64,000 bases of DNA, taken from contig NZ_NJIF01000001.1 in assembly GCF_002209555.1 (NCBI RefSeq), positions 806,001-870,000 on the forward strand. The letters run 5' to 3'. The DNA is from Achromobacter insolitus. GTDB taxonomy: Bacteria; Pseudomonadota; Gammaproteobacteria; Burkholderiales; Burkholderiaceae_B. A program made the position numbers and the translations under genes. The notes under the pieces were generated by a model. The model saw only the letters and a list, made by a program, of their open reading frames with translations, made no database searches and was not told where the DNA came from. Shown here piece by piece: positions 18,988-28,336 of this stretch. The stretch's first letter is position 1, and each line of letters begins with the position of its first letter.

Positions 18988-19965
18988 TTACATGGTCAGG
19001 ATGATTTTGCCTATGTTTTCACCGCTTTCCATCATGGCATGGGCGCGCGAGGCCTCGGCCAGCGGGAAGGTGGCGTGCACAATGGGCTTGATGGCCCCTT
19101 TTTCCAGCAGGGGCCAGGCGTGCTCGCGCAGGGCGCGCGCGATCGCGCCCTTGAAGGCCACCGGACGGGGACGCAGGGTCGAGCCGGTGATGGTCAGGCG
19201 GCGACGCATGACCTGGGCGGTGTCCACATTGGCGTGCGCGCCGCCCAGTTGGGCGATGATCACGATGCGGCCGTCATCGGCCAGGCATTGCATGTCACGG
19301 GCGATATAGTCGCCGGCCACCATGTCCAGGATCACGTCCACGCCGCGTCCGCCGGTGGCGTCCAGCACTTCCTTCACGAAATCCTGGGTCTTGTAGTTGA
19401 TGCCGCGATCCGCGCCCAGCGCTTCCACGGCGCGGGCCCGGTCGTCGCTGCCAACCGTGGCGTAGACCTTGTGACCCATGGCGCGGGCCAGCTGGATCGC
19501 CGTGGTGCCGATGCCGCTGGCGCCGCCGTGCACCAGCAGCGCCTCGCCTTCGGACAGGCGGCCGCGGTCGAACACGTTGCTCCAGACGGTGAAGTAGGTT
19601 TCCGGCAGGCCTGCGGCCTCGATGTCGGACAGGCCCTCGGGAATGGGCAGGCATTGCGCGGCGGGCGCGACGCAGTATTCCGCGTAGCCGCCGCCCGCCA
19701 CCAGGGCGCAGACCTTGTCGCCCAGGGCGAAGCCGCTGCCCGCCAGGTCGCCGCCGACGATTTCGCCCGCCACTTCCAGGCCCGGCAGGTCGGAGGCGCC
19801 GCGCGGCGGCGCGTAATTGCCTTTGCGCTGGAACACGTCGGGACGGTTGACGCCCGCGGCGCTCACTTTGATCAGGACTTCACCCGCGCCGGTTTCCGGC
19901 GTGGGGCGTTCCACGGGGACCAGGACCTCGGGGCCACCGGGGCGAGAGATTTCTACGGCGTGCAT
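18988..19965 (-). CDS. NAD(P)H:quinone oxidoreductase, zinc-independent MDR family (PIG3-like)
   Basis: A 325-residue member of the quinone oxidoreductase/PIG3 group. The N-terminal domain carries GVNRPD and VAGGGYAEYC. The Rossmann fold starts at LLVHGGASGIGTTAIQLA (about residues 140-160), including the NADPH-binding GGASGIG. No structural or catalytic zinc ligands are present. GCAAAGGAGG before the ATG at 19965 fixes the start; 48 further open codons upstream are spurious. It is on the same strand as tpiA-secG and is paralogous to the truncated gene at 1-450. Confidence 0.94.
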   Translation of the reverse strand: MHAVEISRPGGPEVLVPVERPTPETGAGEVLIKVSAAGVNRPDVFQRKGNYAPPRGASDLPGLEVAGEIVGGDLAGSGFALGDKVCALVAGGGYAEYCVAPAAQCLPIPEGLSDIEAAGLPETYFTVWSNVFDRGRLSEGEALLVHGGASGIGTTAIQLARAMGHKVYATVGSDDRARAVEALGADRGINYKTQDFVKEVLDATGGRGVDVILDMVAGDYIARDMQCLADDGRIVIIAQLGGAHANVDTAQVMRRRLTITGSTLRPRPVAFKGAIARALREHAWPLLEKGAIKPIVHATFPLAEASRAHAMMESGENIGKIILTM

Positions 19966-20081
19966 CGCGTGCCTCCTTTGCAGCAAATGGATTATTATTG
20001 CGCCCTTTACGGCGTATCGTGTTCCCGGCCAGGTAGATTGTTTGCCTGATGGGCGCATCACCGGAAATATACGCAATACCA

Positions 20082-20169
20082 GGAAGCGTGGCAGAGTGGT
20101 CGATTGCACCGGTCTTGAAAACCGGCAACGGGCAACCGTTCGTGAGTTCGAATCTCACCGCTTCCGCCA
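20082..20169 (+). tRNA. tRNA-Ser(UGA), CCA encoded
   Basis: 88 nt. The acceptor stem GGAAGCG/CGCTTCC, anticodon stem CCGGT/ACCGG and loop CTTGAAA give anticodon TGA. There is a class II variable arm and an encoded CCA. Confidence 0.95.
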
Positions 20170-28024: not shown

Positions 28025-28336
28025 GCCCGAGTGGTGAAATTGGTAGACACAAGGGACTTGAACTAATTTGAGCCCTTTGGGGGAAACTCCAAAGGTGTAG
28101 CCCGTCAAACTCGGCGAATGCCCTGGACCCGTTCCGAGCCAACGCCGAGCCAAGCCCAGGTCGCATGACCGGGGAAGGTGTAGAGAGCAGACGGCGGGCA
28201 CCTACGGCCGCAAGGCTATGGTGAAGGCGTGCTCCAGACCACGAACAGCGCATCCGCGCTGGCGGCGAAAGCCGAAGTGGTAAGAAAATCCCTCGGCCTC
28301 GCGGCCGTACCGGTTCGATTCCGGTCTCGGGCACCA
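28025..28336 (+). tRNA. tRNA-Leu(UAA), interrupted by a group I intron
   Basis: A 312-nt gene; the mature tRNA is 87 nt (28025-28059 joined to 28285-28336). The acceptor stem GCCCGAG (28025-28031) pairs with CTCGGGC (28326-28332), then A and an encoded CCA. The anticodon stem AGGGA (28052-28056) pairs with TCCCT (28289-28293). The joined 7-nt loop is C-T-T-A-A-A-A, giving anticodon UAA. The intron lies between U34 and A35, the same site as the cyanobacterial and plastid tRNA-Leu(UAA) intron. Simple tRNA scans would miss this gene or report only fragments. Confidence 0.95.
28060..28284 (+). ncRNA. Group I self-splicing intron in tRNA-Leu(UAA), IC3-like
   Basis: 225 nt, with no homing-endonuclease frame. 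The 5' exon ends in U and the intron ends in G, as required. P1: exon GGG-A-CUU can pair with GAGCCC in the intron 5' part, with one bulged A and a U-G pair at the splice site. P2: CCTTTGG (28074-28080) with CCAAAGG (28089-28095). P3: CCGTC (28102-28106) with GACGG (28190-28194). P4: CTCGGCG (28110-28116) with CGCCGAG (28143-28149). P7: GAGCA (28185-28189) with TGCTC (28230-28234). The Q-like GAGCCAAGCCC and R-like GTAGAGAGCAGACGG match the cyanobacterial intron in sequence and order. All core helices are intact, so it should be active. Confidence 0.93.

Follow-up and report, generated by a model that had tools for sequence, protein, structure and literature searches.

Group I introns in tRNA genes are described in one source as mostly cyanobacterial with a few alpha- and betaproteobacterial cases, and there the tRNA-Leu(UAA) intron is named for cyanobacteria and plastids (PMC4033280). 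The tRNAscan-SE 2.0 paper reports group I introns in tRNA-fMet and in the tRNA-Ile2 of Acidovorax and Burkholderia, the Ile2 introns lying outside what this program was designed to detect (PMC8450103). According to a 2014 review, phage introns were at that time known in protein genes only (PMC3984707; see also PMC11408192 and PMC11835236). None of the open-access titles and abstract openings listed concerned a group I intron in a betaproteobacterial tRNA-Leu(UAA) or tRNA-Leu(CAA) gene, but one may be in print, as the subscription literature lay mostly outside this scope.

The window analysed here is a stretch of 64,000 nucleotides from a draft genome of Achromobacter insolitus (6.44 Mb, 28 contigs). 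In our reading, to which we assign a probability of about 0.93, it contains an IC3-type group I intron of proteobacterial lineage, which is probably spliced and which splits a tRNA-Leu(UAA) gene of which no second copy was found in this draft genome. With the cyanobacterial tRNA-Leu(UAA) intron it shares the gene, the site after U34, the layout of the core, the U-G pair and the terminal G, whereas the cyanobacterial copies form a clade of their own, have a mean identity of 0.53 to the window intron and show GACUC/GAGUC in P7 (four rows) instead of GAGCA/UGCUC. The introns of tRNA-Ile(CAU), of which that of Azoarcus BH72 is an IC3 example, likewise have betaproteobacterial hosts, a small core and GAAA loops, but they are inserted after U36, lack the P9/P9a arms of the window intron and belong to a different clade (mean identity 0.59). 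Alphaproteobacterial tRNA-Leu(UAA) introns (Caulobacter, Bradyrhizobium, Rhodobacter and others) occupy the same gene and site with an IC3-like core, yet differ in sequence (0.66), in an often shorter P5 and in having GACUA/UAGUC in P7. Finally, the tRNA-Leu(CAA) introns of Burkholderiaceae form an adjoining clade with a mean identity of 0.81 and, unlike the window intron, are located after C34, with C-G replacing U-G at the 5' splice site.

The split gene and the fold of its intron

A first-pass annotation, made from the letters of the window, had proposed a group I intron of 225 nt after U34 of tRNA-Leu(UAA); this proposal is confirmed, and its coordinates are exact (table 1). When the exons are joined, ARAGORN at default settings calls a tRNA-Leu(taa) with a cloverleaf and a long variable arm. 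With introns allowed, ARAGORN finds the gene in the genomic sequence, and intron-containing tRNA calls occurred in none of 300 dinucleotide shuffles of the 800-bp region. However, this mode also yields a false call elsewhere in the window (19792-20169), and because it is prone to such calls, the claim rests on the fold and on the homologues.

Table 1. Coordinates of the split gene and its intron in the window, and of features at compared loci.
Feature	Location	Strand	Remarks
tRNA-Leu(UAA) gene, complete	28025-28336	+	split after U34; ARAGORN with introns allowed, fold
5' exon	28025..28059	+	up to U34
Group I (IC3-type) intron	28060..28284	+	225 nt, last base G
3' exon	28285..28336	+	A35 to CCA
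P1	28057..28072	+	exon CUU 28057-28059 with guide GAG 28070-28072; U-G at 5' splice site
P1 extension	28060-28062/28067-28069	+
P2	28074..28095	+	9 bp, GAAA loop; both sides changed in 8/9 pairs among relatives
P3, 5' strand	28100..28106	+	partner 28193-28199; both sides changed in 5/7 pairs
P4	28110..28149	+	28110-28116/28143-28149, encloses P5
P6	28155..28174	+
P7, 5' strand GAGCA	28185..28189	+	partner UGCUC 28230-28234; guanosine-site helix
P8	28200..28222	+	element resembling 11-nt GAAA receptor
P9, P9a, P9b	28238..28281	+	P9 28238-28242/28277-28281; P9a 28246-28261; P9b 28263-28274, GAAA loop
Terminal guanosine (omega-G)	28284..28284	+	3' splice site
Split tRNA-Leu(UAA), plasmid pCTX-M3	L424:5994-6293		unannotated, complete by eye
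Split tRNA-Leu(UAA), second plasmid	L423:5995-6294		unannotated, complete by eye
tRNA-Lys(UUU)-like gene, phage Daredevil	L422:2419-2730		group I intron
Phage-type integrase gene	L383:8779-10226		just past 3' end of split tRNA-Leu(UAA)
Intronless 5' half-copies of tRNA-Leu	L013:1307-1340, L014:1298-1338, L018:1266-1304, L023:1266-1304, L025:1267-1305		~200-235 bp upstream of intron gene
Introns in tRNA-Leu(CAA)	L018-L027, L031-L034, L233, L254		after C34
tRNA-Leu(CAA) copy lacking a found 3' exon	L028 (G033:C14:41701-41888)		5' exon and intron
Introns in CAU-anticodon tRNA genes	L239, L240, L242-L247, L249-L251, L253, L271		after U33

All 68 proposed pairs of P1 to P9b are standard in the window, and P2, P3, P4 and P7, previously read as perfect complements, are indeed fully paired. 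In an alignment of 30 Leu copies from Burkholderiaceae, 95.0% of the cells pair, compared with a shuffled mean of 89.1%, and 24 pairs show changes on both sides, compared with 16.5; none of 500 shuffles was as high in either respect. Across 38 copies from several phyla and tRNAs, 95.9% of the core cells are paired and the covariation score is 0.450 versus 0.157 (0 of 500). Pairing is poorest in the distal part of P6 (54% of cells), and P7 is paired in 100% of cells while being variable in sequence, with GAGCA/UGCUC in 14 of the 38 copies (including that of the window), GACUA/UAGUC in another 14, GACUC/GAGUC and GACUU/AAGUC in four each and two further strand pairs once each. A P3-P8 core with P7 crossing P3 as a pseudoknot is present, and both P3 and P7 change on both sides and remain paired.

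The U-G pair at the 5' splice site, U(-1)-G11 in the window, and the terminal G occur in 17 of 17 aligned Leu(UAA) family copies, and the loops of P2 and P9b are GAAA in 30 of 30 family copies. The P8 strands read CCUAAGG in 13 and UAUGG in 17 of these 30 copies, the strands of the 11-nt GAAA receptor; their counterparts in the window intron are CCUACGG and UAUGG. Subgroup IC3 is characterized by a short P5 without P5abc and by a P9 with two hairpins. The window intron has these features, and its nearest relatives are tRNA introns with the same layout. By analogy with known group I chemistry, the intron probably cuts itself out of the precursor: the guide GAG would pair with CUU, the last three bases of the 5' exon, with U-G as the pair at the splice site. 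The attack after U34 would come from a guanosine bound in P7, and the freed end of the 5' exon would in turn attack after the terminal G, such that the joined exons would form a standard tRNA-Leu(UAA) that reads UUA.

Visibility to search programs and need for the tRNA

It had been anticipated that simple tRNA scans would overlook this gene, and both scans applied here do so: default ARAGORN reports three tRNAs in the window, with the split tRNA-Leu(UAA) not among them, and Rfam at gathering scores reports the same three. The Rfam group I model RF00028 has no match anywhere in the genome, and when the locus was compared with Rfam at E<=1, the sole match was an unrelated small RNA (E 0.52), with none to a group I model. 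A consensus scan found no promoter-like or terminator-like site for the split gene. Among chosen introns, RF00028 finds three of three cyanobacterial Leu introns and two of four in tRNA-Ile(CAU), but none of 13 others in Leu, Ser or Thr tRNAs. In a sibling from the same genus (G174) it matches the intron at the same place with an E value of 2.3e-8 and 40.1 bits, which is below the cut-off. Matches over the cut-off are found in none of 43 genus genomes and in eight of 250 genomes of the order, rising to one and 27, respectively, at E<=0.001; of the 18 Leu(UAA) introns identified in these 250 genomes, the model finds one over the cut-off and ten at E<=0.001. Since RF00028 is blank for all 13 non-cyanobacterial Leu/Ser/Thr introns and its sibling match falls below the cut-off, we ascribe its silence on the window intron to limited detection and do not regard it as a defining trait.

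The tRNA model finds 52 tRNAs in the draft genome, all of them typed, and the leucine tRNAs among these are Leu(CAA), Leu(CAG), Leu(GAG) and Leu(UAG), with no intact Leu(UAA); the earlier statement that the window holds no other Leu(UAA) thus extends to the draft genome. Ile(GAU) and Ala(UGC) are also absent from this inventory, which means that the draft is incomplete and leaves some room for a second Leu(UAA). A pattern for the anticodon arm of Leu(UAA/CAA), with up to three mismatches, found no intact Leu(UAA) in any of seven genus genomes, one of them a single contig; it did find Leu(CAA), and its one extra match was the 5' exon of an intron gene. With the inventory and the pattern scan both lacking it, we rejected the idea that this incomplete assembly contains another Leu(UAA) gene in intact form. 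The 37 mechanically chosen long ORFs of the window contain 19 UUA codons.

That the locus is a dead gene or the fold a product of chance is very improbable. The missing Rfam group I match in the window would fit such a reading, but it is opposed by the covariation, by exons that are nearly identical in seven genus copies, by the failure to find another Leu(UAA) copy and by the UUA codons in long ORFs. Judged from sequence, the intron is real and conserved, and it is very probably functional, in a needed tRNA gene.

Distribution and kinship of the intron

A core model of 144 positions was built from 38 copies including the window and its relatives. It matches 43 of 43 genus genomes, a result that is partly expected because the window and its relatives were in the training set; 42 genomes have one match, and in the one with two, these lie near the two ends of a single contig. 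With any host tRNA, the core is matched in 41 of 250 genomes of the order and in 27 of 299 of the phylum, and the host is Leu(UAA) in at least 18 and at least 12 of these genomes, respectively. All seven genus loci that were read, out of 43, are tRNA-Leu(UAA). The genes neighbouring the split tRNA vary within the genus: in the fetched flanks, the upstream CN-hydrolase gene is found at three of the seven loci and the downstream GST gene at the window's own locus only.

Of the 52 order-level matches, 42 were fetched, six were already in the set and four were left unread; for the 30 phylum-level matches these numbers are 18, four and eight. Thirteen of 118 loci on genome contigs had no ARAGORN gene, some being at contig ends and some having long introns. 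ARAGORN mis-splits labelled Phe, Ser(AGA) and Ser(GGA) were re-split by script, the labels 'ATA' and 'AAA' were judged by eye to be mis-splits of Leu(UAA) and Ile(CAU) genes, and three doubtful loci (L241, L252 and L414) were not counted as Leu(UAA). A second type of intron was seen in tRNA genes with a CAU anticodon (Ile2 or Met), where it is located after U33 and not U36 (12 of 42 fetched order loci and one of 18 phylum loci).

The insertion site had been called cyanobacterial, and the same site is used in the 11 complete cyanobacterial copies examined. The further claim, that the intron is of cyanobacterial type, did not hold. In a tree of 133 rows, derived from 146 split genes after dropping nine unclear splits, two duplicates and two over-long introns in other tRNAs, the window lies within a beta/gammaproteobacterial set of 39 rows (99/98); its nearest named record is Achromobacter sp. 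RTa. The cyanobacterial Leu copies are a separate clade both in this tree (98/93) and in a subset of 107 rows without long branches and near-copies (100/100), and in a tree of 224 rows, from which unclear splits and the CAU-after-U33 type were dropped, the branch leading to this clade has a length of about 1.1 changes per column. In mean identity to the window intron, the cyanobacterial copies rank lowest of nine groups, below Ile(CAU), Bacteroidota Leu (0.61), Arg(CCU) (0.62), Acidobacteria Leu and Ser(UGA) (both 0.65), alphaproteobacterial Leu, Leu(CAA) and other beta/gamma Leu introns (0.83).

The idea that a cyanobacterium or a plastid recently donated the intron, with gene and site unchanged, could appeal to this common position and to the fact that cyanobacterial and beta/gamma Leu copies as one clade are not rejected in the 107 rows (p-AU 0.50). 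Yet the distance of the cyanobacterial copies, with their long branch, and the nesting of the window in the beta/gamma set rule out a recent import, against which the presence of the core in all 43 genus genomes also speaks; we thus rejected this origin as exceedingly improbable. The first-pass annotation had left a choice between horizontal transfer and very old inheritance: a lone transfer is contradicted by the 43 genus genomes, whereas very old inheritance, and with it a very old origin shared with the cyanobacterial introns, is possible, as the one-clade tests reject nothing. We infer that the intron belongs to a beta/gammaproteobacterial lineage and was inherited within the genus, with no recent import from cyanobacteria. 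In terms of sequence kinship, the site is common with cyanobacteria and the lineage is proteobacterial.

Could all these introns descend from a very old, bacterium-wide Leu(UAA) lineage that was inherited and often lost, with the cyanobacterial/plastid and the beta/gamma copies as branches? Introns occupy this site in Cyanobacteria, in Alpha-, Beta- and Gammaproteobacteria, in Acidobacteria and Bacteroidota and also on phage contigs, and all Leu introns as one clade are not rejected in the 107 rows (p-AU 0.097), though this arrangement is 35 log units worse than the free tree, which mixes Arg, Ile, Ser and Thr introns among those in Leu. With only 222 columns in the alignment and with the patchy presence in order and phylum, we consider such descent rather unlikely. 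Some betaproteobacterial Leu(UAA) introns do not belong to the window's set: the beta/gamma group requires two changes in the 107-row tree and appears as one clade in 19% of bootstrap trees, and in the 224-row tree nine copies from the order (L118, L130, L216, L219, L225, L228, L229, L235 and L238) fall outside that set. In the same tree, a copy from the gammaproteobacterium Stutzerimonas groups with the genus copies (98/86) and one genus copy (L007) lies outside, which is a sign of lateral movement between families.

Mobile carriers and the offshoot in tRNA-Leu(CAA)

Both plasmids inspected, one of them pCTX-M3, carry a split tRNA-Leu(UAA) gene with aac(3)-IId nearby, which ARAGORN finds but mis-splits. 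Among 72,556 plasmid records, 1,256 match 80% or more of the window query, and Enterobacterales account for most of those counted. The split tRNA of pCTX-M3 itself, neighbours aside, has matches in 635 of 5,426 complete E. coli genomes (in 624 of them over at least 80%). Its intron shares 96% identity with one from an alphaproteobacterium, which hints at the source of the plasmid segment.

In a viral catalogue, at least 120 stretches contain the P7 motif (L302-L421). Among the 120 listed, 51 were scored as tRNA-Leu(UAA) split after U34 (including the doubtful L414 as well as L380 and L383, which are host sequence), in a further 13 the scorer misplaced the split of this same gene, and 36 remained without a call. 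The tree contains 58 viral rows, most of which fall into one group, where they make up 48 of 49 rows (85/97). The isolated Gordonia phage Daredevil has its intron in a different, Lys(UUU)-like tRNA gene. L380 and L383 were rejected as phage cargo, both having the host CN-hydrolase gene beside the tRNA. L383, from a close relative, has a phage-type integrase gene just past the tRNA; given the host gene upstream and the integrase at the 3' end, the tRNA is host sequence beside a prophage, and the split gene seems, from this arrangement, to serve as a prophage integration site. At five other loci, the full intron gene is preceded by the 5' half of a tRNA-Leu gene that has no intron and breaks off at the anticodon stem; it resembles a scar left by an integrative element.

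All 15 Leu(CAA) rows of the 133-row tree form one clade (100/96) inside the window's beta/gamma set. They represent 14 genes, as L022 and one of two in L033 are the identical gene; overall, such introns were found in 14 genes of 13 Burkholderiaceae genomes, in one from another family of the order and in one from another order. Due to the insertion after C34, the partner of the guide G at the 5' splice site is a C. In a 2016 paper the G-U pair is described as a strong requisite (PMC6274277). In eight of 13 full-length genes the exons are identical to the intronless Leu(CAA) gene of the window genome, which argues for insertion into Leu(CAA) and not for a change of anticodon. Intact Leu(CAA) was not found by pattern in six of 13 genomes with a Leu(CAA) intron; tRNA-Leu(UAA) can read UUG too, however, so this is no proof that the split copy must splice. 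Three genomes (G070, G050 and G002) have introns in both Leu(UAA) and Leu(CAA), which are 0.735-0.791 identical to each other. In five genomes (G013, G103, G105, G122 and G002), an intact and an intron-bearing Leu(CAA) gene lie about 2-7 kb apart in opposite orientation. One further Leu(CAA) copy (L028), with changes at conserved core positions, looks like a decayed one.

Lateral spread among proteobacteria of the intron or of the whole split gene, by phages, integrative elements or reverse splicing and with repeated gain at the same site, is in our judgement fairly probable. It would account for the position of the Stutzerimonas copy, the phage and plasmid carriers, the half-copies beside some intron genes and the Leu(CAA) exons identical to those of an intronless gene, whereas the 43 of 43 genus genomes suggest vertical descent within the genus, and 225 nt leave little room for an endonuclease gene.

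Overall, at somewhat less than even odds, intron-split tRNA-Leu genes may constitute a bacterium-wide, mobile and largely unannotated lineage that resides on chromosomes, on resistance plasmids and in phages. The trnL intron of cyanobacteria and plastids would then be only one of its branches, and the lineage would have sent one offshoot into Leu(CAA), where splicing would proceed across C-G instead of U-G. Because default ARAGORN and Rfam pass over the split gene, genomes of this kind seem to lack a tRNA that reads UUA. As introns of this kind occupy the site in bacteria far removed from cyanobacteria, the site becomes a weaker mark of cyanobacterial or plastid descent, and with the Leu(CAA) offshoot nature provides a test of the flexibility of the U-G rule in group I splicing.
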